From a virus: 33,783 nt of DNA. Location: the IMG/VR virus record IMGVR_UViG_3300024518_006527, positions 1 to 33,783 of that record, one strand, 5' to 3'. The notes beneath the pieces were generated by a model. It was not told the DNA's origin. It did no database searches and worked only from the letters and a program-made list of their open reading frames with translations. Both the position numbers and the translations under genes were made by a program. Of the stretch, positions 1,652-32,458 are shown piece after piece (within the stretch, counting starts at the first letter, position 1; each line of letters starts with the position of its first letter).

Positions 1652-2331
1652 TGACTACCTCTGCAGCGAAAGCAGCTCTCCGTGACGAGAAAACATGTGC
1701 GTCAGCGTGCATGTTCGCCATGGATGCGCTCTTGGGATCTTCATGGAGAGCGTGGGAGCCTGAGACCCTTTGGCTCTCACTCACTCGGATGAGGGTCCAT
1801 GTTCCTGATGAGAATCGGGAACAGATCATGGCAGCCCGCAGCCTCATCACCACGGGCCGCTTCTACTATGACATGCATGCCTTCGAGAAAACATGCATGA
1901 GCTTCAACAACGAAGAGGGTAACTACGACGCCCTCGATGACGCCCCTGTCATGTACATCAGCTGGGCGGTAGCTGAAGCGGAGATGATCCACCGCTTTTA
2001 CGAAGACGGAGAGACGGGCGTATTAGACCGAGAGCCTGTCTGCTACACCGCAATACAGCTTCACCGTGCTGGGTTCGTGCAGGCCCCTACCCCCTTGGGC
2101 TGGGCTCAGAAAGAGCTCGACAAGCACAACGCCAATGATGCCGCATGTAAAAAACTATGTGCTACGGTGCGAGAGGGATGGGCTGCTGCACCCAGGGGAG
2201 ATGACCTCCTGAGTGCAGCATTTCCCGAAACTCCCGAGGGAGTACAGCTTGCTCGACTAGCCGCTGTCCACGTCTATCACGAACGTCGTCGTAAAGAACG
2301 TGAGCAGCAGCTAGCCAAGCTCAAGACCTAG
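1651..2331 (+). CDS. Conserved-looking phage protein of unknown function
   Basis: A 226-residue protein starting with an ATG that overlaps the TAA of the preceding small gene, and ending 97 bases before the convergent AAA+ ATPase gene. The sequence is mixed helical with many Trp, Tyr, His and Cys residues (Cys near 16, 20, 82, 131, 165 and 169), which gives it the look of a compact globular protein. The C-terminus is basic and probably coiled (HERRRKEREQQLAKLK). There is no signal peptide, membrane segment or recognisable catalytic motif. It is coupled with presumed virion genes upstream, so a head or DNA-packaging accessory role is possible but unproven. Confidence 0.6.
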   Translation: MTTSAAKAALRDEKTCASACMFAMDALLGSSWRAWEPETLWLSLTRMRVHVPDENREQIMAARSLITTGRFYYDMHAFEKTCMSFNNEEGNYDALDDAPVMYISWAVAEAEMIHRFYEDGETGVLDREPVCYTAIQLHRAGFVQAPTPLGWAQKELDKHNANDAACKKLCATVREGWAAAPRGDDLLSAAFPETPEGVQLARLAAVHVYHERRRKEREQQLAKLKT

Positions 2332-2399
2332 AATTCGACCGTCCATTTGATCTTGTACTCGTACATGGGTACCGCTGGCACGTACACGTAAGAAGCATC

Positions 2400-2430
2400 A
2401 AGGAAGAGAGTGCTCTCCCTTTCCTTGTTT
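2400..2430. terminator. Possible terminator between convergent genes
   Basis: Between the plus-strand gene ending at 2331 and the minus-strand ATPase gene ending at 2429. AAGGAA (2400-2405) plus GAGA (2406-2409) can pair with TCTC (2414-2417) and TTCCTT (2421-2426) across a 3-base bulge and a 4-base loop. TTGTTT follows on the plus strand. The stem is imperfect, so this is a weak call. Nothing else is visible in 2332-2428. Confidence 0.3.
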
Positions 2431-3742: not shown

Positions 3743-5410
3743 ATGGTTACCGGGCTTGACGACATATCAATACGGAGATCGGAGTGGGTAACCACACTCT
3801 TGTACCTCGACGGGAAACCTTTTTCGCTTCGAGATTACCCCTTCTACAACATGGTGTACGACAACACGTACTCGGCCATGCTTTTGAAAACTGCGCGACA
3901 GGTGGCCAAGAGCACCACCCTGTCAAATTTTTTGATCACTGAAGCGTGTAGTACTCCCCACTGGAAGAGCCTCTTTGTAGCACCCAGTCAGGAGCAAACA
4001 ACGAAGTTCTCCCAGACGCGTGTGGGAAAAACGATTTTCTATTCGCCAGAAGTAAGGCGACGTTGGATCTCGAAAGAACTCTCTAGTCGTGTGTACATGA
4101 AGATGTTCACCAATGGCTCGGAGCTCGCTTTCTCCTACGCCTGTGATGACCCTGACCGTGTGCGTGGTGTGTCTGCAGACCGCGTCGCCTACGACGAGGT
4201 GCAGGACATCATGTATGACGAGGTCATCCCCGTCATCAACGAGTGCATGGCCAACTCTGACTTCGCCTATGAAACGTACTGTGGAACTCCTAAGTCGATG
4301 GAGAACACCATAGAGACTTTGTGGCAGTGGAGTACACAAACAGAGTGGGTGGTCAAATGTGATGCTTGTGGTCGATTCCAGTTCTTTGTCGACGACAAGT
4401 GCTTGGGCAAACTAGGCCCTATTTGTTTGAACTGCGGGGCATACATAAACGTACGCAACGGTGAGTGGATCGACATGAATGTCTATCCACCTGGATTCGA
4501 CGGGAAACGGATCAAAGGCTTCCATGTTCCCCAGGTAATCCTACCTAAAAACTCACCTGCGGCTATGCCACGCGACGCTCGTAACCAAGAACTGGCCGAG
4601 CGTCGTTGGAAGCGAATACTAGAAAAGCATGCTGTTTATCCGACAGCTAAATTCAAGAATGAGGTCATGGGTGTTTCCGATGCCATCGGTACACGTCTCA
4701 TCTCCAAGGAGGAACTCGAAGCCCTTTGTCTTGACTACGAGGTCACGGATTATCCCACAGGCAATATGTTGATGAGCAACTACCGCAGTGTAGTGGCGGG
4801 CGTCGACTGGTCAGGTGGGGGTATGCAGGGCAACTCCCGCACTGTCCTTTGGATCTGGGGTATCTGCTCAGGGGGACAACAGCACAACTTCCGTCTTAGA
4901 ACGCTGTACTTCAAAGTCTACCCTGAGACCAACCCCATTTCGGGCGGGGTTGTTGACCATATTGTAGACATGTGCACCCGCTTCAACGTAGAGCTGGTGA
5001 TAGGCGACGCTGGTGCTGGAGCTCTAGCTAACTCCAACCTCCGAGAACGCCTCGGGGGACACCGTGCCATGCAGGTACAGTACAAGGGCGGCACCTCAGG
5101 TAGTGGCGGTGCAGGTCGCTCCTTTTACTGGAACAAAGTCGACCGCTTCTTGGCCGAACGCACGACCATGATTGATCACTTCTTCATGTTCGTAAAGCGA
5201 GAAGGGGTTGTCTATCCCAACGTCCGACAGATGGCGATTCCCATCAAGGACATGCTCAACGAATACGAAGAAGAGACCAAGCATGGCCGTAAGGTGTGGA
5301 GGCATGCCCCCACGCAGCCGGATGACTGCCTTCATGCTCAAATCTTTGGCTGGATGGCAGCCAAGTTTGCGACCATGGATCCGATGTTCACTTTCAACAG
5401 TGAAGTCTGA
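3743..5410 (+). CDS. terL: Terminase large subunit (ATPase-nuclease) with zinc ribbon insert
   Basis: This is the DNA-packaging motor: an N-terminal ATPase that translocates DNA into the prohead through the portal, and a C-terminal nuclease that cuts the concatemer. The 555-residue protein shows a deviant Walker A KTARQVAKST (49-58), Walker B RVAYDE with D151 and E152, and a coupling motif CGTP (180-183). The nuclease has an RNase H-like acidic set: D355 in VAGVDWSGG, D422 in VIGDAG and D527/D528 in QPDDCLHAQ. Between ATPase and nuclease is a Cys-ribbon, C206-x2-C209 and C228-x2-C231, reminiscent of lambda gpA-type terminases. The ATG at 3743 has GAGGAAA eight bases upstream. No small-terminase gene was recognised beside it. 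Downstream lies the structured island at 5411-6289. Confidence 0.93.
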   Translation: MVTGLDDISIRRSEWVTTLLYLDGKPFSLRDYPFYNMVYDNTYSAMLLKTARQVAKSTTLSNFLITEACSTPHWKSLFVAPSQEQTTKFSQTRVGKTIFYSPEVRRRWISKELSSRVYMKMFTNGSELAFSYACDDPDRVRGVSADRVAYDEVQDIMYDEVIPVINECMANSDFAYETYCGTPKSMENTIETLWQWSTQTEWVVKCDACGRFQFFVDDKCLGKLGPICLNCGAYINVRNGEWIDMNVYPPGFDGKRIKGFHVPQVILPKNSPAAMPRDARNQELAERRWKRILEKHAVYPTAKFKNEVMGVSDAIGTRLISKEELEALCLDYEVTDYPTGNMLMSNYRSVVAGVDWSGGGMQGNSRTVLWIWGICSGGQQHNFRLRTLYFKVYPETNPISGGVVDHIVDMCTRFNVELVIGDAGAGALANSNLRERLGGHRAMQVQYKGGTSGSGGAGRSFYWNKVDRFLAERTTMIDHFFMFVKREGVVYPNVRQMAIPIKDMLNEYEEETKHGRKVWRHAPTQPDDCLHAQIFGWMAAKFATMDPMFTFNSEV

Positions 5411-5735
5411 CCTTGCTGTCCTCTCGGACCTCTGAGCACCCAATCAAGGTAGCGAAGTCGTCAAGTCAAGATACCCTAGTAAGGGGTATCTGACGAAGGA
5501 CGTTGAAGCTTCTTGATCCAGTGACGAGGAGGCCGCAGTGCAATGTGCGAAGCACCATAAGGCTCTATGTGTGCGCGCTTCTGCATTTGTCGTTAGGTGA
5601 CGGAACATCACCTGTAGTCAGTGACTATGACTTTCCAAGGTCTTCTCTTGCTGGGCTGTGAGCGGGACGTCCCGAATCAGGAAATGCATTGCATCTTCTG
5701 ATTTGATCAAGGAGTCTACGCGTTCGGACAAAAAA
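5411..5735. other. Structured non-coding stretch A downstream of terL
   Basis: About 325 bases with no credible gene but dense secondary structure. Visible elements: GATACCC/GGGTATC stem with 7-base loop (5470-5490); CTGACGA (5490-5496) that could pair with TCGTTAG (5590-5596, one G-T) to enclose a multibranch domain; GTGC-GAA-GCAC (5545-5555); AGGTGA-CGGAACA-TCACCT (5595-5613); a 13-base palindrome TAGTCAGTGACTA (5615-5627); the 12-base palindrome CGGGACGTCCCG (5663-5674); and an imperfect hairpin of about 12 pairs at 5675-5703. It could be a structured RNA transcribed past terL, or a DNA site such as a packaging or replication site. It shares one hairpin type with stretch B (5995-6289). Confidence 0.5.
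5595..5613 (+). repeat. Stem-loop copy 1 with CGGAACA loop
   Basis: AGGTGA and TCACCT form a perfect 6-bp stem around the loop CGGAACA. The copy at 6227-6245 has the same loop on the stem CTGCGA/TCGCAG. Three of six base pairs differ while pairing is kept, which argues for selection on structure. Confidence 0.6.
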
Positions 5736-5768
5736 GAAGGGGGCAGCCAGTGTTACCTGACCGCCCCC
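5730..5768 (-). terminator. Rho-independent terminator of the 72-aa gene
   Basis: Read on the minus strand, GGGGGC (5768-5763) pairs with GCCCCC (5744-5739), with an extra CAG/CTG pairing inside, and is followed by TTCTTTTTT (5738-5730). The hairpin begins 7 bases after the stop codon of the minus-strand gene at 5776-5994. No T-run follows the hairpin on the plus strand, so it should act only on minus-strand transcripts. Confidence 0.8.
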
Positions 5769-5775
5769 TCTAGGG

Positions 5776-5994
5776 TTACTCCCAACCTTCGACCAACTCT
5801 ACCTTTTGGGTAGAGACGCTGTAATGGCGTTGTTTGTAGCCGTACCCGTGAGCCACCATGAGTTGGCGGATTTGTTCTTGGAGAGCTTGGAGTCTCTCCT
5901 TTTCCTCTTCAGCCTTATGCATGTGGCTGTAAGCACGGATATAGCTCTCCCCTGTTTCACGGTTTTCGACGTGGAGCAAGTGCACCTTCTTCAT
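5776..5994 (-). CDS. Small charged coiled-coil protein, unknown
   Basis: A 72-residue protein. A longer open frame reaches 6240, but its upstream part runs through highly structured DNA. The ATG at 5994 is preceded by ATGGAGG with good spacing, so I take that start. Residues 26-50 are Glu/Lys/Gln/Leu-rich and likely form one long helix. The C-terminal part is Tyr/His-rich and basic, then acidic at the end. No known family is recognised. It is the only gene in the structured island and has its own strong terminator. Its leader on the minus strand is stretch B (5995-6289), so its expression may be controlled by that structure. A small regulatory or host-takeover protein is a guess. Confidence 0.6.
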   Translation of the reverse strand: MKKVHLLHVENRETGESYIRAYSHMHKAEEEKERLQALQEQIRQLMVAHGYGYKQRHYSVSTQKVELVEGWE

Positions 5995-6122
5995 GAGTAC
6001 CTCCATTGGAACTTTTTGCCGTTGGAGATTCGAAGGTGAACAATAGCGAGCGGGACCCGCCAACCTGAGATCTTGAAGAAGCGCAAAGCTGCTTCTCAAT
6101 ATCAGGCTTTTGGGTGGCCAGA

Positions 6123-6168
6123 TATCTGACAAGGTCGAAGACCGTCCCCCGAAGGGGAGTGTCAGATA
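6123..6168. ncRNA. Three-way-junction structure, RNA or DNA element
   Basis: A perfect 9-bp stem (TATCTGACA 6123-6131 with TGTCAGATA 6160-6168) encloses two 4-bp hairpins, GGTC-GAA-GACC (6133-6143) and CCCC-GAA-GGGG (6147-6157). Only five of 46 bases outside the loops are unpaired. On the minus strand the second hairpin reads CCCC-TTCG-GGGG, the classic very stable C(UUCG)G tetraloop in RNA. That favours a minus-strand transcript, the sense of the flanking genes. Type ncRNA is an inference. Confidence 0.45.
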
Positions 6169-6226
6169 GCACAGGCACCCTGCGTCTAGCACAAGCGTAA
6201 CGCAAGGTACTAGGTGACCTAGCAGT

Positions 6227-6245
6227 CTGCGACGGAACATCGCAG
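6227..6245 (+). repeat. Stem-loop copy 2 with CGGAACA loop
   Basis: CTGCGA and TCGCAG form a perfect 6-bp stem around CGGAACA, the same loop as at 5595-5613. The 13-base palindrome CTAGGTGACCTAG ends 4 bases before it; at copy 1 a 13-base palindrome starts 1 base after it. I found no third copy of GACGGAACATC in the window. Confidence 0.6.
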
Positions 6246-6289
6246 CCTTAGGAGGGATTTACCGGGCCCCGCTCATATGCTTTTACCAG

Positions 6290-6934
6290 TTATGCAATCG
6301 CTGTAGTGACTGCTTCATCTGCTTCATTGTCCAGCTCGGGCGAGACCGCCATGGGGATCTTCGCAGCGAGCTGGTACAGGTACATGCGGTTCTGGAGAAT
6401 GAATCCAGGGTAACTCGCTACAATAATCTCCGCGGGAGCTTGGCGACTGCGAATAGCAGACCTCTCCAACCGCAGGGTGCGAGCAACATTGAAAATTGGC
6501 ATGTAACTGATGGTTCCGTTTTGGTCATTCACAGTGACCACGCAGGGATCCAAAAGCGTTATCTCACGTTCGGTCTCTTCTTTGACGATGCCAAGAATAG
6601 GTCCATCGGGTGTGGCAATGATTTCCACGCGAGCGTTTTGACAGTCTTCCTGATCCGTGACGGTCACGAATTCGACGTAAGATTTGGCGACCTTAGCGTC
6701 CGTCTCAATCCAATCAGGGCGTAGCTTGGCGCCATGCTCCACCATTTTTTTGAGCATATCAGGAGAGGGATCTTTAACGATATCGTCGTTCTGATCCTTG
6801 ATCACACGAGTCCATTGATTTCGAGTCTCCGTGACGACATGCAGGGTGAATGTCATCCCGAATTTTTCGAAGACCTTGGTCTCGTGCTCAGGCTGCCACG
6901 AAGGCGTCTTCTCGGAGTTCTGTGAGGAGCTCAT
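6290..6934 (-). CDS. Unknown protein, possible Sm-like fold
   Basis: A 214-residue protein whose ATG (6934) lies 47 bases inside the 3' end of the polymerase gene, so it is the last member of the replication operon before the structured island. Residues about 102-180 read as a series of beta strands (VEIIATPDGPILGIVKEE, then TLLDPCVV, then ISYMPIF), a rhythm like small Sm/LSm-type proteins seen in phages. That resemblance is weak and by eye only. The first 90 residues are polar and helical and the C-terminus is acidic. There is no Cys cluster or nuclease motif. A nucleic-acid-binding accessory to replication is plausible from context. Confidence 0.65.
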   Translation of the reverse strand: MSSSQNSEKTPSWQPEHETKVFEKFGMTFTLHVVTETRNQWTRVIKDQNDDIVKDPSPDMLKKMVEHGAKLRPDWIETDAKVAKSYVEFVTVTDQEDCQNARVEIIATPDGPILGIVKEETEREITLLDPCVVTVNDQNGTISYMPIFNVARTLRLERSAIRSRQAPAEIIVASYPGFILQNRMYLYQLAAKIPMAVSPELDNEADEAVTTAIA

Positions 6935-9900
6935 GTTCTTCTACGATTCCTTCCTGTCTAGGCACATAGCTGTGCTTAGCAAGGTACTTATCAATGGCTT
7001 GGCACTCTCCATAACTGGGCCCCACTTCTATGTCAACCTTGAAGGGCACTGGTAGCCACGGGAATTTCTCACTAACACGTGTCTCAGCGTAGTATGTCAC
7101 GAACTCCTTCAGTTCCAACAAGTGCTTCTTCGGGAACTGAAAGACCATGGAGTCATGCACTGTGAGTAGATGACGCGCCCCTGGAAAAGTAGACCGCAGC
7201 GGTTCACTGATTTCCACGAGCTGAGCTACGACGATATCCGAGCTCGTCGATTGAATCTTGAAGTTACGCGCTTGGCGAACCGCACGGCTACGATGCCGTG
7301 AAATATGCGCAAGGGGGAAGCGACGACGACGGAAGAAGTGTGTTTCCACAAACCCGTTACGCAGCACCTCTTGTTCGATGCGCTCCGCGTAGGTCTTGAT
7401 CGCGGGGAACATCTCATAAAGCAAAGCAATAAGCGCCTTGGCTTCATCGAAGTCCACTCCGATACTCTCAGAGATCTTCATGGGGCCAGCCCCGTAGAGA
7501 ATCCCAAAGACAACACGCTTGATACGAGATCGTTCCTTGTCTAAGAGTTTGCGCTCTTTTTCATCGGGTACAATGCTCGCGTCGTCCCGGCCAGCGTATT
7601 TCGCATACGGCCTGCCAAAGACCTTGTGCGCAAAGAAACTGTGCATGTCTAGACCCTCGTTGAGGGCCTTGATCAATGCAGGGTCGTGTGCGTAGGCCGT
7701 AAAGACACGTACCTCAGCGCCTTTGTAGTCGACGTTGACGATCACATAGTCTTCGTTGTCCGGTATGAACAGCTTCTTGATATTCCATCCCGCCAAGAAT
7801 TTCGGGATGTTCTGCATGTTCATGTCTGAGCTGGACAGACGCCCCGTACCCGTTCCGTTCAGATGAAACTGGGTATGAAGAAACCCATCTCGCTTAGACA
7901 GCACACGCACGTTGGCCAAGAAGGTGTTGAGTGCCTTGGAGCTCTTACGCCAGCGCAGTAGGCGCTCCAAGAAGTACGACTTCTGCGTAGGTACTTTCTT
8001 GTCTTCGTCTTGGTACTCGACCAGAGGCCCGAGGAGTTTGGCTGAGGTACTGGGCTGACCCTTCTTCGTCTTGGCTAAGACTTCATAGGGTTCCATTTTT
8101 GTACCGTCAGGGTGTGTCCAGCCCCAGTTGTACAGCACGTTGGCTAGCGACCCTGCATGGTTCAAGTTGAGCGGTGTACCGTCCAGCTTGACCGTGCCTG
8201 CCATTTGATAGAGCTCAGATTCCGTCGAGTTGACGATCTTACGAAGCCCCTCATCAAGCACTGCGATGTACGGTCGGTCGACCTTCAGTCCCTCGTACTC
8301 CATCGCACCCAGTACCCGAGTTGCGGGTATGGCGTGGGAACGCATGAGGCGAGCTACCTTGGAGCCCTCCTTGGCGATCCGCACTTTCTGAACACGAGTG
8401 AGTTGCCTAGTTACGTCAGCATCGACTGCTCCATAGATTTGAAGATCGCGCACAGGCACGTTCTCAAACCCCGCGTCCTTGGAGATCTGTTTCTCCTTCT
8501 TGGTACGCGGATCCTTGGGTCGTTTAGGCTTCTTGATGGCCTTGGGCTTCTTGGGCTTCGTGAACCACTTGACCGGCTTCTTTGGTTTTCCACGCTTACC
8601 TTTCGGCCAATCAGAAACCACTACCTTCCACGCTGCCTGCTGCCCGGCCAAGTGCGCCTTGATGAACGTGTAGTCTTCCATGGCTTGGGTGTATTCAGCC
8701 ATGGCCAGTGCGCGCTCTTTGAGCTCCCTGGTGTGTACGACGAGCTCTTCGCGATACTGTCGGAGCAACGCCAAGAACTCAGGATGGTCTTCCTGAAGGG
8801 AGACCTCCTGGTCTTTGATTTCCTTGTCAGTCGCTTCGACCTGAGAGATCCCTGCCTGGAGCATGAGAATGTCGTAGAGCTTGTCCTCATAGCCACAGTA
8901 CTTGGGCAGCCACCCTGCAGTGAGTGCCTTCAGCCCGTAGCTACCCTTCTTGTCTTCATCGAGAAGGTGCTCTCCGAGCAGCGTGTCCCACACCACGTTA
9001 CGTACAACAAATCCATCCTTCAATTCGATGAACTTGAGATCGAACTTGGCGTTGTGAAATATCTTCGGCTTGAAGGTACCCAGCACACGCTGGATGACCT
9101 CCCGGATTTCAGCTAGTCGGTCAAGATACTCTTGTGGCGCGTGGGGATGCTCGTAGAGAATAGTAGTAGCAAGACCCTCACCCCACCCAAAACAGAAGCC
9201 AATGATCTTGGCTGATTTCTTTTCCGGGTGGAGCGTCGTGGTCTCTGTGTCCACAGAGATGGCCCAGTTTTCTGGGTCACCCTTTTTGGCGTAGTTGATG
9301 ATGTCGTCACATACCGCGACTGCTTCTTCGACAGTCTTGGGTATGATGTACTTGCCCGAAATCTTCTCTAGGGTGACCTCTTCATCAGGGCCTCGTTGAG
9401 ACCGTTCAAAAGCATTCTGTAGATCGAGTTTGAATGTTTCGAAGAGACCTGGCTTAGCCAACAGCGCCTTCTGGCTGAAAGTAACCAAGACCTGAGCATT
9501 GTATTTGGGGTGCTTGAAGAACTTCCCCCGCGCATCTCGGTGCTTACCTTTGAAGCCAAGCTGCCGCATCACAGCAGCGCCCATAGCTACAATGATTTTG
9601 GGGCGCGTAGAGAAGATGGTACTCGTGAGGTAGGTGCTACACGCAGTGAGTACTTCTTTGTTTGGAGCCACGTCTTCTTCGTCCATACACTGCACCGCGT
9701 AGGTGTAGCGACACTCGACGAACTTGAACTCTGGCTTCTGACGCAACATCGTAATCGCAGTTTTTACGATGCGCCCTGCATGTCCCAAGAAGGGCATGTT
9801 ATTGACGCCGGACTTGTCATCCGGTTGATCCGCAATGACTAGTAAGTCAAAGGGCTTGGATACATTGGGACTCGAAGGGGTACACCTCTTGTTGTCGTAT

Positions 9901-9950
9901 CTAGGGCATCCTTTACAAGGTTTGCCCTTCGGTTCTTGCGGTCTACGCAT
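6888..9950 (-). CDS. polA: DNA polymerase I family: UDG-like, 3'-5' exonuclease and polymerase domains
   Basis: The 1020-residue replicative polymerase. Residues 1-185 are a uracil-DNA-glycosylase superfamily domain (family 4 look) with C12-x2-C15 and further Cys at 23, 80 and 88 that could hold an Fe-S cluster. The motif FLGHAGR is present, but the usual GExPG and HPS motifs are changed to ADQPDD and TFSQ, so glycosylase activity is doubtful. The exonuclease follows: Exo I D234-x-E236, Exo II N300/D304, Exo III Y506/D510. Polymerase motif A is VNVDYKGAEVR (D741), motif B is RIKRVVFGILYG (K811, Y819) and motif C is TVHDSM (D933). A Lys/Pro-rich insertion of over 100 residues separates Exo II from Exo III. 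A UDG-like domain in front of PolA is known from SPO1-type phages. The ATG follows the TAG of the primase-helicase gene directly. Confidence 0.95.
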   Translation of the reverse strand: MRRPQEPKGKPCKGCPRYDNKRCTPSSPNVSKPFDLLVIADQPDDKSGVNNMPFLGHAGRIVKTAITMLRQKPEFKFVECRYTYAVQCMDEEDVAPNKEVLTACSTYLTSTIFSTRPKIIVAMGAAVMRQLGFKGKHRDARGKFFKHPKYNAQVLVTFSQKALLAKPGLFETFKLDLQNAFERSQRGPDEEVTLEKISGKYIIPKTVEEAVAVCDDIINYAKKGDPENWAISVDTETTTLHPEKKSAKIIGFCFGWGEGLATTILYEHPHAPQEYLDRLAEIREVIQRVLGTFKPKIFHNAKFDLKFIELKDGFVVRNVVWDTLLGEHLLDEDKKGSYGLKALTAGWLPKYCGYEDKLYDILMLQAGISQVEATDKEIKDQEVSLQEDHPEFLALLRQYREELVVHTRELKERALAMAEYTQAMEDYTFIKAHLAGQQAAWKVVVSDWPKGKRGKPKKPVKWFTKPKKPKAIKKPKRPKDPRTKKEKQISKDAGFENVPVRDLQIYGAVDADVTRQLTRVQKVRIAKEGSKVARLMRSHAIPATRVLGAMEYEGLKVDRPYIAVLDEGLRKIVNSTESELYQMAGTVKLDGTPLNLNHAGSLANVLYNWGWTHPDGTKMEPYEVLAKTKKGQPSTSAKLLGPLVEYQDEDKKVPTQKSYFLERLLRWRKSSKALNTFLANVRVLSKRDGFLHTQFHLNGTGTGRLSSSDMNMQNIPKFLAGWNIKKLFIPDNEDYVIVNVDYKGAEVRVFTAYAHDPALIKALNEGLDMHSFFAHKVFGRPYAKYAGRDDASIVPDEKERKLLDKERSRIKRVVFGILYGAGPMKISESIGVDFDEAKALIALLYEMFPAIKTYAERIEQEVLRNGFVETHFFRRRRFPLAHISRHRSRAVRQARNFKIQSTSSDIVVAQLVEISEPLRSTFPGARHLLTVHDSMVFQFPKKHLLELKEFVTYYAETRVSEKFPWLPVPFKVDIEVGPSYGECQAIDKYLAKHSYVPRQEGIVEEHELLTELREDAFVAA

Positions 9951-15100: not shown

Positions 15101-15811
15101 ATGAGTACGAAAAACACTACCGCTGTTCGCCCCTACAATCACGATTCGCTCGCGATCTACTACAAGGACGTGGAGGGGACCCGAATACTAACTCGGGCTG
15201 AGGAACAGGGGCACATACGAAAATTTCATGAGACACAAGATCCTGCAGCACGTGATCTGATTATTCAAGGAGCTTTGCGATATGTAATCGCAGAGGCCCG
15301 CAAACACCCTAGAGCCTTCCATAATCGTTCAGTTTTGGAAGATCTCATAGCCGCTGGGAATATCGGACTGATCCGTGCACTACACAAATTCGATCCAGAG
15401 GCAGGCACTCGGTTCTTAACGTACGCCGGTTGGTGGGTACGCCATGAGATGCGCGAAGAAGGACGCCGGATAGGCATTGTCCACATCCCCGCCCACGCCA
15501 TCGCTAAAGGAACCAAGATACCTATTGCCACTGCGCTCGCCGAACATTCTGCTACGGATACGATCACGCGGGATGCTACAGCTCAAATCAACTCTACGCA
15601 GAGCGTCGTGAAGTTGCTTGTGCTCACCCCGTTGAGTACCCGTGAAACTTTTATTGTGAAGACCTGTTACGGTATTCATACATCTGCAAAAACCTTGAAA
15701 CAAATAGGCAAGGTTTTGGACATCACTGGGGAGCGTGTACGCCAGTTACGAGAAGCGGCGCTTACTAAGCTCCGCTCGTCTGCGTCTACACACCAGATTT
15801 CTCTTTTTTAG
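15101..15811 (+). CDS. Sigma-70 family RNA polymerase sigma factor
   Basis: A compact 236-residue sigma factor. Region 1.2 is at about 16-44 (SLAIYYKDVEG, LTRAEEQ), region 2 at 48-120 (LEDLIAAGNIGLIRALHKFD and TYAGWWVRHEM), a short region 3 at 124-140 (VHIPAHAI), and region 4 at about 173-226 (LSTRETFIVK, then the helix-turn-helix ITGERVRQLREAALTKL). It directs core RNA polymerase to promoters. In region 2.4 the Gln and Thr that contact the -10 box in the housekeeping factor align with His and Glu here, so its -10 preference may differ. The gene is alone on the plus strand between two minus blocks. It lacks a ribosome site and may be leaderless. It likely partners the phage polymerase at 24753-32458, or reprograms the host enzyme. 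Its stop overlaps the parB stop by 3 bases. Confidence 0.92.
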   Translation: MSTKNTTAVRPYNHDSLAIYYKDVEGTRILTRAEEQGHIRKFHETQDPAARDLIIQGALRYVIAEARKHPRAFHNRSVLEDLIAAGNIGLIRALHKFDPEAGTRFLTYAGWWVRHEMREEGRRIGIVHIPAHAIAKGTKIPIATALAEHSATDTITRDATAQINSTQSVVKLLVLTPLSTRETFIVKTCYGIHTSAKTLKQIGKVLDITGERVRQLREAALTKLRSSASTHQISLF

Positions 15812-23935: not shown

Positions 23936-24625
23936 TTATGACTCCGCCGTAGGTGGCGAAACTTGAGCAACCTTGGCGTGCAGCTCTTCCAACGTAGCAG
24001 ATGGTGTTTCCACGGTGCTCTTCACAGGAGCACTGGGAGTAGATCTACTACGTGGCCCTCGGAAGCGCGGCTCACCCTGGTCACGTTGCTTTTGCTTTTG
24101 CTTCGCTTTGAAGCACTCTTGACAGAACTTGGGCGACCGCCAAACTGATCTACCCTTTCGGAACTTGGCTGCGACCACATGGGCCTTCACCTCCGCTGTG
24201 TCACCACAGGCTTGGCAAAGAATCGTTTCCATGATGTGCTCGTACCAGTCCTCGGGATACGTCTTCTTGAGCCAGAGAATGCTCTCTGTAGTTGTGGGGA
24301 TCCATACCCCTACCTGCGCCACTCGGAAACACCGGCACAACCGCTCCAAGTGCGTCGGCAACACAGCCTTGCACAAGAAACAGTCCTTCCGATCTGCCCG
24401 GCTCTCATCGATCTGCCATACCTTACGGAAGAAGAAGGCTACCTCGTAGATATCCTCTTCCGTCAGAGTGCAGCCTTGACGTTCGCTCAGCATTCGCCCC
24501 TGTTCGACCCGCTCATGATGCACTGCCCAAACGCAGATCCGAGCGATCTTCTGATCAACTCTCAGGTCTACGAACTCTTCCAGTTTCAACTTAGCGAACC
24601 GCTGTATCTCGTTTAGCTCTTCCAC
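23936..24625 (-). CDS. Cys-rich putative zinc-binding protein
   Basis: I start at the GTG at 24625 (229 residues) because AGGAGGG lies about 6 bases upstream; the longer frame to 24667 is less likely. The protein has CFLC and CRC about 70-90 residues in, then CQACG and CQEC about 135-170, so two CxxC pairs could form one or two zinc sites. A segment of Lys/Arg/Gln (KAKQKQKQRDQGEPRFRGP) follows and the tail is disordered. It is a lone minus-strand gene between the portal block and the polymerase gene, with which it shares a 127-base divergent upstream region. No family is recognised; nucleic-acid binding is inference. Confidence 0.65.
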   Translation of the reverse strand: MEELNEIQRFAKLKLEEFVDLRVDQKIARICVWAVHHERVEQGRMLSERQGCTLTEEDIYEVAFFFRKVWQIDESRADRKDCFLCKAVLPTHLERLCRCFRVAQVGVWIPTTTESILWLKKTYPEDWYEHIMETILCQACGDTAEVKAHVVAAKFRKGRSVWRSPKFCQECFKAKQKQKQRDQGEPRFRGPRSRSTPSAPVKSTVETPSATLEELHAKVAQVSPPTAES

Positions 24626-24691
24626 AATCACCCTCCTAAAGATGTGTAGAAATGTCGTGTCGTGCATACTCCAGGTCTAAGTCCGGAGCAT

Positions 24692-24743
24692 CACAACCTT
24701 TTACCACTAGCGGTTGTGTAATTAGGACAACACCGAGTATAAT
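24692..24743 (+). promoter_or_regulatory. Promoter of the RNA polymerase gene with inverted-repeat operator
   Basis: A perfect -10 hexamer TATAAT lies at 24738-24743, with TTGTGT (24714-24719, 3 of 6 matches to TTGACA) 18 bp upstream. A 7-bp inverted repeat CACAACC (24692-24698) / GGTTGTG (24712-24718) covers the -35 area and may be an operator. The -10 is only 9 bases from the ATG and there is no ribosome site, so the mRNA is probably leaderless. Confidence 0.55.
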
Positions 24744-24752
24744 TCACTAGCT

Positions 24753-27700
24753 ATGGCCTCGGAATTACAGCCACTACTGACCGACGCGGGCACTCGCCGT
24801 GAGTCCATTCGTGAAAAGACGGTCGAAGGCCTCAAGGCTTTGTTCCCCATCGTTGGGCGGAGCACCACCCTTGAGGTCAAACACGTCAACGTAAAGAAAA
24901 AGGACTACTCGTCGAATCAGCAGAAGGAAGCCCTCATGAAGGGGCGCACTCTGCATGAGCCGATCACGGGTACGCTGGTTCTCAAGGACAACGACGGTAA
25001 AGTCGTAGAGGAAAAGAAAAACCATACCCTTGTCCATCTGCCCTACTTCACAGAACGCCACACATTCATCGTGGGCGGTAACGAGTACGACATACCTAGC
25101 CAGATGCGGCTCAAGCCGGGGGTGTATACCCGTGAGCGCAACAACGGAGAGTTCGAAGCTGCCTTCAACCTGAGCAAAGGAAGCAACTTCCGTCTGTCCA
25201 TGGAGCCTGAGTCCGGGCGTCTTCACATGGAGCTCGGGACATCCAAGGTCCCGCTGTACTCTTTGCTGCGATCCTTAGGCGTGCCCGAGGCAGATATCCG
25301 GCAGCACTGGGGTGAAGAACTGCGTGACGTCAACGCAAACAGCTTCAAGGGCAAAGAAGAAATCGCCATCAACAAGGTCATCAATAAGATCAAACGTAGG
25401 GGAGATACCGTACCCACTACGGTTGAGGGAAAAAAGGAATTCGTACGTAACTACTTTGATGCCACCGCCATGGATGCTGACGTCAATATGCGCACCTTGG
25501 GTGTCCCTGTAGACAAGGCCAACCCTCTGGCGTTGCTGACAGCCTCCAAAAAACTAATAGAAGTACAAAAGGGTAACGACTCAGAGGATGACCGCGATAG
25601 CCTTGAGTTCAAGACCATCCACTCCGTAGATGACTTCTTTAGGGAGCGGCTCAACGTAGACGCCAAACGCACCATCGCACGTAAAGTGGGCTTGAAGATG
25701 AATCAAGCTCGTGGACGGACCTTGAAAGAACTCGTCCCCAACTCCACGTTTACGCGCTCGCTCAATTCGTTTATTACGAGCTCCAATCTGAGCTCTATCC
25801 CGATGCAGATCAACCCTGTTGAAATCATCGACCACGCGTCCCGTATTACTTCACTGGGTGAGGGTGGTATCGGTAGTGAGCGCGCTATTCCTTTTGCAGC
25901 GCGCCAAGTACACAACACCCACCTCGGCATTCTGGACCCGGTTCGTACACCTGAGTCCTTCAAAGCAGGTGTTGATGTACGTGCGGGGCTGGCTGCATTC
26001 CGAGATCGACGTGGGAATCTTTACTCCCTAATGAAGGATATTCGTTCTGGGAAAATGACTCACGTGCCTGCCACTACTTTAGCCAAGAGCACCGTTGCAT
26101 TCTCAGGGCAAGAACATCGGTCTCGGCTAGATGCCGTCCGAGGTAGAGACGTAGTATCCGTAGCGCGCAAAGACGTAGACTACGAGCTGCCCAATGCTGC
26201 GTACATGTTTGGCCCCACCACTGCGATGGTGCCCCTGATAGATGGGATGCAAGGTAACCGTACCATCATGGGCTCCAAGTTCCAGACTCAAGCACTGCCG
26301 TTGCTGGAGCGCGAAGCTCCCTACGTACAGGCTGCTGCGCCTCGTAAGGGCGAGAGCATGGAACGAGAAATCGCACGACTTGTCGTGCCCACTGCGAAAG
26401 GGGCTGGCACTGTAACTAAAGTAGATGCCGATTACATCTACGTCCGCCCTGATGGTCCCAAGACAGCCGCGCCGGCCGTCCAAAAAATACCCTACGACAC
26501 TTATTTCCCCCTCTCATCTAAGACGTACCTTCACAACGATGTGACCGTGAAGGCAGGGGACAGAGTCAAAAAAGACCAGACGCTGGCCACCTCTAACTTC
26601 ACCAAAAACAATACCATGGCTCTTGGTAAGAACATGACCGTAGGGTACATGGCTTACTACGGGAAAAATTCTAACGACGCTGTGGTGATTAGTGCAGGGG
26701 CTGCAAAAAAGCTCACCTCTGAGCACATGTACAAGGAGGTCATGACCAAAGGTCAGGATGTAATCCTTGGCAAAGAGAAGTACACGGCCTACTACGGCTT
26801 GAACTTCACGGCCGAGCAGCTGGGAAACCTTGACAGCAACGGTATAGCCAAGGAAGGCGTCACACTACACAAGGGTGACCCTATTATCCTTGGCATGCGC
26901 AAGTCTCCTCCCTCTCCTGAGGCTGCGCTACTCGGTAACTTTCACAAGTCACTGGTCAAGCCCTACCGCGACATCACAGTCACCTGGGAAAAGACGGTAC
27001 CGTGCGTCATCCAAGACACCATGGACAGCGCCCGGCAAATCATGGTGACTGTGCGTACACAAGAACCGATGAAAATCGGAGACAAGCTTGCCAACCGTTT
27101 CGGCGGTAAGGGGGTCGTCTCTGAAATCGTCGATGATGAACGCATGATTCAAGCGGAGGACGGCAACCCTATTGATGTTTTGTTCACATCAGCAGGCGTA
27201 GTAAGCCGCATCAACCCTGGTCAGATCGTAGAGTCAGCGCTTGGTAAAGTGGTAGCCAAAACAGGCAAGCCAATAATCCTCCCGCAATTCATGCGAGAAG
27301 ACAATGTGAAGTTCGCCAAGAAGCTGCTGAAAGAGCACAAGCTCAAGGACAAAGAAACAGTCTACGATCCCATCGCCGACAAAAAGATAGACGACATCTT
27401 CGTAGGTAATTCCTACATACATAAGCTGTTCAAATCTACTGAGACCAACTACTCAGCCCGAGGGGTGTCTGCTTATGACATCAACCTTCAACCTACACGT
27501 GGTGGCGACGAAGGTGCCAAGGGCGTTGGCAAGATGGAAATCAATGCGTTGTTAGCGCACAACGCACGGAACGTCTTGAAAGAAAATCTCACAACCAAAG
27601 GTGAGAAGAGCGATGAGTTCTGGCGAGCCTATGAATTTGGGCTGCCCCCTCCCCCTCCCAAGACTCCATTTGTGTCCGAGAAGTTTGTCACCATGCTGCA

Positions 27701-29132
27701 AGGTGCAGGCATCAATGTAGACAAACAGGGGTCACAGGTTTCCTTGGGACCTCTCACCGACCGAGACATCAAAAAGCTGAGCTCGGGCGCTCTTGCCGTA
27801 CCCAGCTTGGAGAAGTCCAAGTCCTTCATGGTTAGCGCCAAGAACATGAAGCCGGAAAAGGGCGGGCTTTTCGACCCTAGTTTGACAGGGGGCCTTAGCG
27901 GTACTCGTTGGTCTCACATGGATCTAGCTGAGCCAGTAGTCAACCCCGTCTTTGAAGAGCCCGTACGTAGATTCCTGGGCATGACCAAAGCCCAGCTGCG
28001 CGCTGAAATGGGAGAGATAGGCGGTGATGGAGTGCGTAAACGCCTCAACCGCATCGACATGGAAAAGAAGGAGGATGAACTTCTTCAACTCACAAAGACC
28101 AAGCGCGGCGCTGACTTAGACAACGCAATCAAGCAGCTGAAATACATCCGCGCTTTGAAGGCGGGGGACCACAAGAAAATAGGAGACGCATACACGATCT
28201 CCAAGGTTCCAGTCATCCCTCCTGTGATGCGTCCTATCCTTCCATCGCAACGAGGTAACGAGCTCCAAGTTTCCGACATCAATTACCTGTACCGAGATGT
28301 TGGGTTGGCTTCTGAAGCTTTGAAGGGTATGGCGGCGATCGGGCTTCCGAGTGCTACTTCGGACGCACGCCATCACTTACATGACGCAGCCGGTGCGTTG
28401 TTTGGCACAATGCGCCCCACAAGTCCGCAGTTGAAGGGGCGCGAAGCCAAGGGCTTTATCGAACAAATCACGGGAGCTGGCTCTCCCAAGTCTGGCTTTC
28501 TGCACAAAAAGATACTGAAACGACAGCAAGACCTGTCGGGACGAGCCACGGCCACCCCAGACAACACTCTCAACATGGATCAAATTGGTATCCCCGAAGA
28601 CATGTTGTGGAAGACCTACTCCAAGTTTTTGATGCGAGGCCTAGTGGGGCAAGGGTACAAGCCCACACACGCTGCCGAGATGATCGAAGAGCGTCACCCA
28701 GCCGCCAAGGTTATTCTTGATGCCGAGATTCAAAAAAGGCCTGTGTTTGTTAATCGCGCTCCCTCTCTGCATAAGCATAACTTCGTTGCTGCTTACCCTG
28801 TATCAGTTCCAGGAAAGTCGCTACGAGTAAATCCATTCATGGAGAGGGGACAGAACCTCGACTACGACGGCGACACCATGCAGCTGCATGTGCCTGTCGG
28901 AACCAAGGCCGTTGAGGAAGCACAAGGACTTACCTTGTCTAAGCTACTCTTCAGCGACAAAAATAGGAACGACCTCATGGTCTTCCCGCAACATGAAGCC
29001 ATCCTGGGTGTCTATCTCGCCACTGCGAAGAAGGAGCCTGGGCGTGCCAAGAAGTTCAAGACCAAAGCCGCCGCCATGAAAGCCTATCGTCTTGGCGAAA
29101 TCACCATGAATACCCCTGTCTCCATCGGATAG
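24753..29132 (+). CDS. rpoB-rpoC: RNA polymerase beta subunit fused to N-terminal half of beta-prime
   Basis: A 1459-residue fusion. Residues 1 to about 960 are a full but short beta subunit: VGGNEYDIPSQMRLKPGVY near 105-125, the rifampicin-region counterpart FITSSNLSSIPMQINP, the fork counterpart SLGEGGIGSERA, GDKLANRFGGKG (776-787), and SYIHKLF to GKMEINALLA at the end. A five-proline linker (965-969) leads into beta-prime: KPEKGGLFDP, then HMDLAEPV with no zinc-finger insert between, VIPPVMRPILP, NRAPSLHKHNF and the catalytic loop NLDYDGD (1368-1374; three Mg-binding Asp). The chain stops about 85 residues later, before the funnel. The rest is at 30647-32458. The four Cys of the usual N-terminal beta-prime zinc finger are absent. 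This is a viral-type core lacking alpha and omega in the window. Confidence 0.95.
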   Translation: MASELQPLLTDAGTRRESIREKTVEGLKALFPIVGRSTTLEVKHVNVKKKDYSSNQQKEALMKGRTLHEPITGTLVLKDNDGKVVEEKKNHTLVHLPYFTERHTFIVGGNEYDIPSQMRLKPGVYTRERNNGEFEAAFNLSKGSNFRLSMEPESGRLHMELGTSKVPLYSLLRSLGVPEADIRQHWGEELRDVNANSFKGKEEIAINKVINKIKRRGDTVPTTVEGKKEFVRNYFDATAMDADVNMRTLGVPVDKANPLALLTASKKLIEVQKGNDSEDDRDSLEFKTIHSVDDFFRERLNVDAKRTIARKVGLKMNQARGRTLKELVPNSTFTRSLNSFITSSNLSSIPMQINPVEIIDHASRITSLGEGGIGSERAIPFAARQVHNTHLGILDPVRTPESFKAGVDVRAGLAAFRDRRGNLYSLMKDIRSGKMTHVPATTLAKSTVAFSGQEHRSRLDAVRGRDVVSVARKDVDYELPNAAYMFGPTTAMVPLIDGMQGNRTIMGSKFQTQALPLLEREAPYVQAAAPRKGESMEREIARLVVPTAKGAGTVTKVDADYIYVRPDGPKTAAPAVQKIPYDTYFPLSSKTYLHNDVTVKAGDRVKKDQTLATSNFTKNNTMALGKNMTVGYMAYYGKNSNDAVVISAGAAKKLTSEHMYKEVMTKGQDVILGKEKYTAYYGLNFTAEQLGNLDSNGIAKEGVTLHKGDPIILGMRKSPPSPEAALLGNFHKSLVKPYRDITVTWEKTVPCVIQDTMDSARQIMVTVRTQEPMKIGDKLANRFGGKGVVSEIVDDERMIQAEDGNPIDVLFTSAGVVSRINPGQIVESALGKVVAKTGKPIILPQFMREDNVKFAKKLLKEHKLKDKETVYDPIADKKIDDIFVGNSYIHKLFKSTETNYSARGVSAYDINLQPTRGGDEGAKGVGKMEINALLAHNARNVLKENLTTKGEKSDEFWRAYEFGLPPPPPKTPFVSEKFVTMLQGAGINVDKQGSQVSLGPLTDRDIKKLSSGALAVPSLEKSKSFMVSAKNMKPEKGGLFDPSLTGGLSGTRWSHMDLAEPVVNPVFEEPVRRFLGMTKAQLRAEMGEIGGDGVRKRLNRIDMEKKEDELLQLTKTKRGADLDNAIKQLKYIRALKAGDHKKIGDAYTISKVPVIPPVMRPILPSQRGNELQVSDINYLYRDVGLASEALKGMAAIGLPSATSDARHHLHDAAGALFGTMRPTSPQLKGREAKGFIEQITGAGSPKSGFLHKKILKRQQDLSGRATATPDNTLNMDQIGIPEDMLWKTYSKFLMRGLVGQGYKPTHAAEMIEERHPAAKVILDAEIQKRPVFVNRAPSLHKHNFVAAYPVSVPGKSLRVNPFMERGQNLDYDGDTMQLHVPVGTKAVEEAQGLTLSKLLFSDKNRNDLMVFPQHEAILGVYLATAKKEPGRAKKFKTKAAAMKAYRLGEITMNTPVSIG

Positions 29133-30026: not shown

Positions 30027-30647
30027 ATGTCAAACTACGCCTACCTGCTGGGGAGCCGCGCCGCCTTCACCAAACTCGGGATGCCCTATCAGGGCCCCGA
30101 GGCTGAGGAAGAGGAGGAGGATCCTATAGCCCCACCCGAAGGCGTACCTCCTTCCCCTGAAGAGGATGAGGAGATTCCACCGGAGTTGCTCGCCGCGCTC
30201 ATGGCACAGGCTGAGGAACAAGGGCCTGAGGGTGCTCCTCCTGAGATGGAGGGCGCCCCGCCCGAGATGGAAGCTGGGCCTCCCGGCATGGAAGAGGAAA
30301 TGCCGCCCGAGATGGAAGCTGGCCCTCCCAGCATGGAGACAGAAGAGGAAGTCCCCGAGGAGCTCATTGCAGCGCTCATGGCAGCACAAGAACAAGGCGA
30401 AGGCCCTGGCGCCGCCATGGGGTTGGAAGATCCTGAGGGTGAAGCGCAGTCTCCCACCGCAGATATGTTCGTAGACTTCGCACACCAAGATGGTACCGCC
30501 GACGAAGCCGACCCCAACGTCGAGATGGAAGAAGCACCTGGTACGGAAGATAAAAAGCCCTCCTGGAGTGGCAACTCTTCCCTCGAAGCAGGGGATGCCG
30601 GTACGCGTAACCACTCAATGGGTCTGCCTCAGTTCAGCGGTGCCTGA
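30027..30647 (+). CDS. Acidic Pro/Met/Glu repeat protein with shared N-terminal motif
   Basis: A 206-residue, very acidic protein starting 2 bases after the previous stop. The N-terminus YAYLLGSRAAFTKLGM carries the shared leader. The body (25-120) is repeats of GAPPEME/AGPPGME/EMPPEME with two copies of a helical PPELLAALMAQ-like unit. The C-terminal 60 residues are polar. Its stop overlaps the start of the polymerase C-terminal gene (TGATG). Proline/methionine-rich acidic proteins with a small N-terminal tag can be scaffold or tail-fibre-like linkers, or bind the polymerase. No family is recognised. Confidence 0.6.
   Translation: MSNYAYLLGSRAAFTKLGMPYQGPEAEEEEEDPIAPPEGVPPSPEEDEEIPPELLAALMAQAEEQGPEGAPPEMEGAPPEMEAGPPGMEEEMPPEMEAGPPSMETEEEVPEELIAALMAAQEQGEGPGAAMGLEDPEGEAQSPTADMFVDFAHQDGTADEADPNVEMEEAPGTEDKKPSWSGNSSLEAGDAGTRNHSMGLPQFSGA
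30232..30360 (+). repeat. Pro/Met/Glu short tandem repeats inside CDS
   Basis: Imperfect tandem units encoding G(A/P)PPEME and AGPP(G/S)ME, flanked by two copies of a unit encoding PPELLAALMAQAEEQG and VPEELIAALMAAQEQG. Low-complexity coding repeat; no mobile element features. Confidence 0.6.
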
Positions 30648-32458
30648 TGTCCAACACGTTTGGGCAGTTTCTTCTGAACGAAGCGATACCCACGCCGTAT
30701 CGACCTGACGGTACGTACACAAAAAAGAAGCTACAAGCGAGCATGATTCGCTTAGCTAAGGCTGACCCTGAGAAGTTCTCGACGGTGATCACTGAGGTGA
30801 AGCGCCTGGGGGATGAATTCGCCACCATGGAAGGCGTATCTGTAGGCCTGGATGACATAGCGCCACTGTATAAGAGGCGAAACGCCATCACACTTCCTGC
30901 GCTAAAACGGATACGCCAGGCCAAGTCCCGCGAAGCACGCCAAGATATAATCCGTGAGACACAGGATAAACTCCTCAACTATGCCATGACGCACCCCGGC
31001 ACTATGGGTGACATGGTACGTGCAGGCTCACGGGGTGCGCCCTTGCAGTTAATGCGCGCAGTGGGGGCTCCTGCTGCGGCTAGTGACGAAAAAGATGAGC
31101 TCCAACCGTGGTTAACTGTGCACAGCTATTCAGAGGGACTTCGGCCTTCTGAGTGGTGGGCTACGAACCGCGAAGCTCGTATGGCCGCCGTCAAGACAAA
31201 CATTGAGGTCACCGAACCAGGTGATCTGTCGAAAATCCTGGTCAATAACACAAGCCACCAGGTAATCACTGAGGCTGACTGCAACACCAAGAACGGACTC
31301 AGCCTGGCAACCGACGACCCCGACCTGCTAGATCGTTTTCTGGCACGGACGGCTGGGACTCAACGAGCAGAAACCCTGGTTACGCCGGGAGTAGTTCGTG
31401 AGCTCAAGAAGAAAAAAATACGCACCGTAATAGCGCGTTCCCCTATGACTTGTGAATCAGGCGTAGGTATATGCCAAAAATGCATGGGCCTGAACAGTAC
31501 AGGCGCGATGAACAAAATAGGGGACAACGTTGGCATACGCGCCAGTCAATCTCTGGGAGAACCGCTAACACAGCTCGCCTTGGACGCTAAGCATGGTGTG
31601 CGGCTCTCTGGCGGAGACCGTGCTCACCTGGCGGGGCTAACTGGATTTCGTGCCATCCTAGAATCTCCCGCCTCCTTCAAAAACAAAGCGATACTAGCTC
31701 CAGAGAACGGAAATATCACATCTGTGATAGCAGCGCCTCAAGGCGGACACTTTGTCACTATGGGCGAAACCAAGCAGCACATTGCGCAAGGGCTAAAGCC
31801 ATTAGTAAAAGCGGGAGATAAAGTACACGCAGGAGATGTACTTTCAGAGGGAGTTCCTCGCCCAGACGAAGTGGTCAAGCACAAAGGACTCGGTGCAGGA
31901 CGTGATTACGTAGTAGACAAGCTGTCCGGCATCTACAAAGATAACGGGATCAACGTTGACCGCCGACACTTTGAGGTATTGGCCAAGTCCACGTTGAATT
32001 ATCTGACTATCGAAGACATCGACGACGAAGACTCAGCCAACCACGGCCTAGTCCGCGGTGACGTCATCGACTACAACCGATTCCGTAACGTGATTTCCAA
32101 CAGCGTTGACGAGCTCCCCCTCAAGCAAGCTGAGGGACGCCACCTTGGCGAAGGTGTTTTGCACCACCTTGCAGGTACACAACTCACGGCTCCCATGGTA
32201 AAGGAACTACAGCGCGCAGGGATCCGGCGTGTGAAAGTCACCATGAAAGCACCTGTAGTTAGCCCAGTCATGGCGCCAGCTACGCGAAATCCTTTGCTAA
32301 ACCCCGACTGGATGGTCCGCTTAGGCCATAGGTATCTGAAGCAGTCTATACTCGAAGGGGCGCAAAAAGGACAAACGTCGGATCTTCACAGCACACATCC
32401 CGTACCCGGCATCATATTCAGCTCTGAGTTTGGTGAAGGATCGGCTGGTCGTTATTGA
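30647..32458 (+). CDS. rpoC: RNA polymerase beta-prime, C-terminal half
   Basis: A 603-residue protein that completes beta-prime. It begins with TFGQFLLNEAIP, matching the bacterial TTxGRxxxN(E/D)xxP segment just after the active-site domain, then GVSVGLDDIAP. It has the second zinc site: C212 and CESGVGICQKC (C269, C276, C279). The bridge/trigger-loop region reads NVGIRASQSLGEPLTQLAL (294-312), followed by KHG, where the active-site His is kept but the usual MRTF is changed to LDAK. The conserved IYKDNGINVDRRHFEVL and SPVMAPAT segments follow, and the protein ends with a rather short C-terminal region. It is translated from an ATG overlapping the previous stop. With the fused beta at 24753 it forms the two large core subunits. 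Confidence 0.93.
   Translation: MSNTFGQFLLNEAIPTPYRPDGTYTKKKLQASMIRLAKADPEKFSTVITEVKRLGDEFATMEGVSVGLDDIAPLYKRRNAITLPALKRIRQAKSREARQDIIRETQDKLLNYAMTHPGTMGDMVRAGSRGAPLQLMRAVGAPAAASDEKDELQPWLTVHSYSEGLRPSEWWATNREARMAAVKTNIEVTEPGDLSKILVNNTSHQVITEADCNTKNGLSLATDDPDLLDRFLARTAGTQRAETLVTPGVVRELKKKKIRTVIARSPMTCESGVGICQKCMGLNSTGAMNKIGDNVGIRASQSLGEPLTQLALDAKHGVRLSGGDRAHLAGLTGFRAILESPASFKNKAILAPENGNITSVIAAPQGGHFVTMGETKQHIAQGLKPLVKAGDKVHAGDVLSEGVPRPDEVVKHKGLGAGRDYVVDKLSGIYKDNGINVDRRHFEVLAKSTLNYLTIEDIDDEDSANHGLVRGDVIDYNRFRNVISNSVDELPLKQAEGRHLGEGVLHHLAGTQLTAPMVKELQRAGIRRVKVTMKAPVVSPVMAPATRNPLLNPDWMVRLGHRYLKQSILEGAQKGQTSDLHSTHPVPGIIFSSEFGEGSAGRY

Follow-up and report, generated by a model that had tools for sequence, protein, structure and literature searches.

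A candidate stand-alone structured RNA and its promoter-like motif beside terL in phages that carry a multisubunit RNA polymerase

What does a phage keep in a nearly gene-free, hairpin-rich stretch between its packaging genes and its replication genes? The question is raised by an IMG/VR virus record of 33,783 bases, the whole of which was analyzed and is called the window here. At positions 5411-6289 of the window, terL on the plus strand and a replication operon on the minus strand stand tail to tail; the coordinates agree with the initial annotation, which had placed a structured island at this convergence. It had also described the island as nearly gene-free, and only the 72-aa frame at 5776-5994 (minus) has a plausible start and ribosome site in 5411-6289 and was kept as a gene. 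The features of the island and its neighbors are given below; L numbers denote loci.

3743-5410, plus: terL, left neighbor of the island
5411-5735, either strand: region A, the second structured stretch, present only in the window, L002 and L003
5737-5770, minus: intrinsic terminator with CTTTTTTG, kept in L002, L004 and L005
5776-5994, minus: 72-aa gene between regions A and B, with no Pfam family match
5995-6289: region B stretch, with RNA B inside it on the minus strand
6290-6934, minus: 214-aa gene beside the island, convergent with terL
6888-9950, minus: DNA polymerase gene of the replication operon

Dense structure had been claimed for the whole island, and both stretches folded better than all of their dinucleotide shuffles on both strands (5411-5735, z -4.58 on plus and -3.49 on minus; 5995-6289, z -6.66 on minus and -5.66 on plus). 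Perfect inverted repeats, defined by a stem of 6 or more and a loop of up to 12, numbered four in 5411-5775 (0.86 expected; matched by 3 of 300 shuffles) and three in 5995-6289 (0.74 expected; matched by 8 of 300). The earlier count of ten hairpins, several of them perfect, is reached once imperfect helices are included. The island had been treated as one thing, and this part of the description did not hold, as its two halves, A and B, differ. When the entire window was tiled on both strands (250-base tiles, 896 in all), the island was not at the top: its tiles ranked fifth or lower, partly because they cut the closing helix of B, and the best tile was 2176-2425 on the minus strand. This most structured stretch of the window (2176-2428, minus, z -7.97) holds several long hairpins, mostly within the 3' end of a 226-aa gene (1651-2331, plus) at its convergence with an ATPase gene (minus), and L002 is about 85% identical to the window across most of it. 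That no known RNA family came to mind at first is borne out by Rfam 15, which gave nothing at or above the gathering score, in the window or in eight relatives; at a relaxed threshold, 5350-6350 gave weak, chance-level matches only, and the Rfam models of ROOL and GOLLD matched neither the window nor the eight relatives.

In region B, a predicted RNA with the following parts can be delimited.

6047-6275, minus: RNA B, multibranched and closed by helix P1 (z about -7.2 when folded alone; covariation; covariance model)
6263-6275, minus: 5' strand of P1, pairing with 6047-6059
6047-6059, minus: 3' strand of P1, pairing with 6263-6275
6227-6245, minus: hairpin P2, CUGCGAUGUUCCGUCGCAG, with the core GAUGUWCCGUC
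6250-6255, minus: CCUCCU, anti-Shine-Dalgarno-like and partly unpaired (unpaired probability 0.62, element mean 0.30)

P1 has 13 bp in the window, a length equaled in 1 of 200 shuffles. A plain MAFFT alignment of the window with L002, unfitted to structure, gave a minus-strand consensus of 68 pairs, in which 51 were the same, seven were changed on one side, ten were changed on both sides and none was broken. Read as plus, the same two rows gave 65 pairs, with eight changed on both sides and none broken, and G-U occurred in 11 pairs on minus vs five on plus. The covariance-model search that had been proposed earlier was run on 29 sources with a model of the window and L002; its hits were L004 and L005 (E 3.2e-10) and, where the element would be expected, L028 (E 0.21), with no others. 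Four rows were then aligned with the model: 23 of 66 pairs were changed on both sides (7 of the 12 model pairs of P1) and 98.6% of cells were paired; none of 500 shuffles reached as high, and slid structures gave 0-3 both-side pairs. This alignment was fitted to the structure and is biased towards it by construction, whereas the two-row alignment is unbiased. The P2 core is common to the window, L002, L004, L005 and L028, and to region A. At the level of sequence comparison, these data support RNA B as a minus-strand RNA with a homologous structure and compensatory changes. Conservation in related phages had been set beforehand as a test that could refute the island, and the structure is kept in relatives. 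The earlier proposal of an undescribed structured RNA thus stands for 6047-6275 (minus), on covariation, conserved place and the promoter-like motif described below.

The strand of B rests on its pairs, the motif and U-runs and not on folding energy, since folding is strong on both strands: among 12 elements (60 shuffles each), z ranged from -2.9 to -9.0 on minus and from -2.1 to -10.5 on plus, and plus folded as strongly as minus in L028, L022 and L023 by z and in L020 by energy. In elements of the L021 type, five pairs were changed on both sides and one was broken when read as minus, compared with three and eight when read as plus. These counts bear on the proposal of a packaging site or an origin, in which the hairpins would function as DNA. 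The location next to terL, where packaging and replication genes meet, would suit such an element. However, the G-U pairs (11 vs 5) and the broken pairs (1 vs 8) point to RNA from one strand, a preference not expected of DNA cruciforms, the element is absent from four related junctions, and a promoter-like motif lies at its edge. Neither a packaging site nor an origin gained support, and we regard a DNA element as very improbable.

A protein gene would be the other way to explain conservation here. A 154-aa frame (5776-6240), which contains the 72-aa frame, is open in the window and would make most of B coding, and 84 and 88 of 98 codons are open in two minus frames of B. However, gaps of 1, 1, 1, 4 and 11 bases between the window and L002, in or at the edge of B, break any frame, L004 has no frame above 40 codons there, and the sequence changes preserve pairs. 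A coding frame through the hairpins was looked for, and none is conserved across B. The 154-aa frame was dropped because of the gaps and the missing long frame in L004, and the chance that B is part of a protein gene appears negligible.

Scanning IMG/VR with TerL yielded 7 loci at first and 20 later; scans that used the 214-aa protein or the polymerase contributed no new close relative. Five TerLs aligned to that of the window were 75-86% identical. A TerL scan of the genome collection gave no relative, a DNA search of named phages gave no match, and TerLs of named phages were at most 30.5% identical among the matches listed (20 of 63 records). Nineteen junctions could be compared, namely the window and 18 of the 20 loci, with L003 and L032 left out because they end too early. 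At 15 of them (the window, L002, which equals L020, L004, L005, L021-L028, L031, L033 and L034), the homologue of the 214-aa gene is followed by GGTAHAAG, and a helix closing an element starts 4-6 nt further on. Several loci are near-identical, so these represent about eight distinct types. Four junctions are without the element: L007 has a gap of 22 bases, L029 and L030 have a plain terminator hairpin at its place, and L035, which equals L008, has a small gene there. L002 keeps regions A and B with a small gene that differs from that of the window, and L003 keeps region A and stops short of B. L004 and L005 carry B alone, without a gene, between the 214-aa gene homologue and the same terminator hairpin, which comes at once after terL; B is thus independent of A and of the 72-aa gene.

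For 11 of the 15 elements, a closing helix of the same length was seen in only 0-2 of 200 shuffles. In L024 and L033 the helix is weak (64 and 72 of 200 shuffles as long), and in L004/L005 it is no better than chance (151 of 200). The B model, run on the 29 sources, did not find the elements of the L021 type, L024, L026 and L027, despite having the place, the motif and the closing helix in common with it. A model of the L021 type found its own members and no others; on L026 it gave a weak full-length match of 10.5 bits, and on B of the window fragment matches only, of up to 5.6 bits. Since the two models do not join all types, we infer the common descent of all 15 elements from their place, motif and order of parts.

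The initial annotation had also considered a switch-like leader of the 72-aa gene, in which B senses something and frees or covers the ribosome site of that gene. One predicted hairpin is relevant here.

5992-6029, minus: hairpin in which the ribosome site of the 72-aa gene would be masked (predicted fold; CTCCA/TGGAG arms also in L002)

The GGAGG of the gene lies inside this hairpin and could pair with the CCUCCU of B, and a small gene stands 3' of B on the same strand in both the window and L002. However, the small proteins of the two are very different, and no gene follows motif and element in L004, L005, the L021 type, L024, L026, L027 and L028. A role as leader is secondary at most, because related elements stand without a following gene, and as the main function of B it seems improbable to us.

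The 3' side of the element invites another interpretation. A U-run lies directly 3' of P1 in L024, L033, L026 and L027, and a terminator directly behind P1 in L004/L005; in the L021 type and L028 a terminator was looked for behind P1 and none was seen. B might accordingly serve the 3' ends of both convergent operons, as a large terminator or as a block to exonucleases, and have no function as a free RNA. It sits right at the convergence, it folds strongly on both strands, P1 with the U-run resembles a terminator with a huge loop in the four loci named, and its place is taken by a plain terminator hairpin in L029/L030. However, a promoter-like motif ahead of P1 is odd for a terminator and is absent where the plain terminator stands. 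The window, L002 and L004 own a separate good terminator, and conserved unpaired loops and inner helices exceed what a terminator needs. In the window, CTATTGTTCACC comes after P1, which does not qualify as an intrinsic terminator; only P1 of L024, L033, L026 and L027 and the separate hairpin at 5770-5737 do so. On balance, we consider a pure 3'-end element unlikely, though less so than a leader.

The motif ahead of P1 therefore deserves attention, together with the transcription genes of the window.

6280-6287, minus: promoter-like motif GGTAAAAG, 4-6 nt before the closing helix, with a predicted transcription start at about 6273-6275
15101-15811, plus: sigma-70 family factor, regions 2 and 4 (PF04542 4.3e-12, PF04545 5.8e-9)
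24753-29132, plus: fused beta/beta'-like RNA polymerase subunit (PF00562 1.3e-43, PF00623 8.6e-19)
30647-32458, plus: C-terminal part of beta' (PF04998 6.6e-18)

G005, a relative contig of 189,879 bases, has its genes split evenly between the strands (89.6 kb plus, 89.0 kb minus). Between its genes, GGTAHAAG is present in 15 copies on minus and none on plus, and 13 of the minus copies lie at most 60 nt before a minus gene; inside called ORFs there are three copies on plus and 21 on minus. Letter-permuted motifs gave a mean of 0.8 intergenic minus copies in G005, with a maximum of five. Of 16 records, 13 contain GGTAHAAG followed by GAG 3-7 nt later, and no record has it on both strands; G005 has ten such copies, all on the replication-gene strand (control 0). 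The strand bias of TGGTAHAAG is weaker in some records (3 vs 8 in G003, 4 vs 1 in G006). Intergenic copies are followed by conserved A/T positions and, 5-6 nt past the motif, by two conserved purines, at the distance where P1 begins in the RNA elements. A strand-specific motif just upstream of transcription units, as in G005, is what is expected of a -10-type promoter. An alternative reading of the motif as the U-rich tail of a plus-strand hairpin was dropped in view of the genome-wide statistics of strand and place. The polymerase domain is present in 7 of 8 records and sigma region 2 in 4 of 4. A T7-type polymerase as reader was considered and set aside, with PF00940 in 0 of 8 records; the control search was equally silent, so this count does not prove absence. 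We infer that GGTAHAAG functions as a promoter and that the sigma factor and polymerase of the phage itself recognize it, an assignment drawn from genome statistics and domain content.

Two further copies of the motif may be mentioned. In the window, a second intergenic GGTAAAAG lies at 24698-24705 (minus), 30 nt before a 243-aa gene (23936-24667, minus). In G005, a stretch resembling a tRNA 3' end (L083, 67965-68328) is followed at once by GGTAAAAG.

Jumbo phages with multisubunit RNA polymerases, such as phiKZ and AR9, are described in the excerpted text of PMC7598289 as having one conserved motif per phage about ten bases before the early-gene start. The motif studied here is likewise short, conserved and placed ahead of operons, but its sequence, GGTAHAAG, is different. 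According to the same excerpt, jumbo phages lacking a polymerase of their own are the ones that usually encode recognizable sigma homologues, whereas the phage of the window has both a multisubunit polymerase and a sigma factor. It resembles the metagenomic RNA-polymerase-encoding Caudovirales (mReC) as portrayed in PMC7481178, which are tailed metagenome phages with cell-like beta and beta' subunits; the words sigma, promoter and noncoding are absent from the main text of that paper. The present data thus add a candidate promoter for phages that combine a multisubunit RNA polymerase with a sigma-70-type factor. This promoter reading is directly testable and would permit mapping of the regulon of such a polymerase.

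The motif, its placement and the phage's own polymerase and sigma factor together make it most likely that B is a stand-alone RNA starting at its closing helix. We consider it probable, judging from the genomic evidence, that RNA B (6047-6275, minus) is a structured RNA made from a promoter of the phage itself. Transcription would begin where P1 begins, about 6 nt past GGTAAAAG, so the 5' end of the RNA would pair with its own 3' end and enclose several hairpins. In some relatives, the RNA would stop at the U-run past P1 or at the terminator directly behind it; in the window, read-through past B via the small gene to the terminator at 5770-5737 is envisaged. As a small gene lies before the terminator in the window and in L002, the RNA may double as a leader there. 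The start at P1, a 3' end just past P1 and the lack of a gene between them suggest a closed noncoding RNA of about 86-230 nt, which would be expected to accumulate; its predicted length in the window is about 230 nt.

The most constant unpaired part of the elements is a pyrimidine anti-Shine-Dalgarno stretch near the 5' end. A match of 5-7 nt lies at nt 20-41 in 9 of 10 elements, with just 4 nt in L028, and in all ten the best match has an unpaired probability of 0.62-0.97 (element means 0.24-0.38). The excess of such matches is modest, being reached by 6 of 300 shuffles for the ten elements and by 9 of 300 for the eight distinct ones. It is tempting to speculate that the displayed stretch binds host or phage mRNAs at their ribosome-binding sites by base pairing and reduces their translation, with the closed fold shielding the RNA. 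Translational repression of this kind, with a protective fold, is placed first among the possible functions of RNA B, as a tentative proposal with odds clearly against it. A more elaborate version, which we hold to be doubtful, would have a closed RNA with a dedicated promoter imitate the 3' end of 16S rRNA and damp translation initiation during infection; RNA A, which shares the hallmark hairpin, could then kiss B loop to loop (CGGAACA/UGUUCCG) if A is read from plus. If ribosome-binding sites do prove to be its target, RNA B would be a translation-control RNA of phages, with rapidly changing inner parts and a constant start, closing helix and displayed loop.

RNA B belongs to a known kind, that of phage noncoding structured RNAs; what is new is the RNA B family, together with the promoter-like motif and the occurrence in a polymerase-carrying lineage. 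6S RNA is one long irregular hairpin whose central bubble imitates an open promoter, whereas RNA B has a multibranched fold and no Rfam match. ROOL and GOLLD RNAs are often carried by phages and have a length of several hundred nt. RNA B is unlike them in being shorter than 240 nt and in having no Rfam match, and like them in being an ornate structured noncoding RNA, as these are pictured in PMC12286853. For a packaging RNA of the phi29 type, the position next to terL is the only point in favor, and no Rfam match was found. Phage small RNAs treated in excerpts of PMC12197685 and, for cyanophage S-CREM1, of PMC9964418 are likewise phage-encoded noncoding RNAs and possible regulators of host or phage genes; in those excerpts they are of Rfam type or host-linked, whereas RNA B is multibranched, has no Rfam match and carries its own phage-specific motif. 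Papers describing RNA B or GGTAHAAG were not found among open-licence PMC papers. A structured RNA family absent from Rfam 15 is added to phages known here from metagenomes alone.

Region A shares one hairpin with B.

5596-5612, either strand: region A hairpin GGTGACGGAACATCACC, with the same core as P2 of B

The common core, GACGGAACATC in the plus reading, has two copies in the island and three at the junction of L002. Region A was considered as a degenerate copy of B and rejected as such, as just the hairpin is shared and the B model gave no full match in A. Searches with the terminator hairpin in phages and plasmids gave weak matches only. L010, a match to the terminator pattern with a near-identical hairpin and a hairpin-rich stretch at 227-650, was tried as a distant member and judged a chance match, since it is a contig with a CI-like repressor and about two exact chance matches to the pattern are expected, by a rough estimate, for a collection as large as this. 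L011 and 29 of 33 loci from the core search were likewise judged chance, as the arms around the core or the surroundings did not fit.

Several pairs of region A are changed on both sides between the window and L002, and its strand indications are divided. The minus strand is favored by two G-U pairs seen by eye, by both-side changes (6 vs 2) and by block 1; the plus strand is favored by the fold z-scores, by the energy of block 3 and by a helix GGAGGCC/GGUCUUC seen by eye in both sequences. When A is read from plus, its loop CGGAACA is the exact complement of the B loop UGUUCCG. This is no evidence of contact, because hairpin copies on the same strand give such complementarity for free. In L002, region A is longer (4473-5020), and the GACGGAACATC hairpin is present there twice, between similar flanks, in a way reminiscent of a partial duplication.
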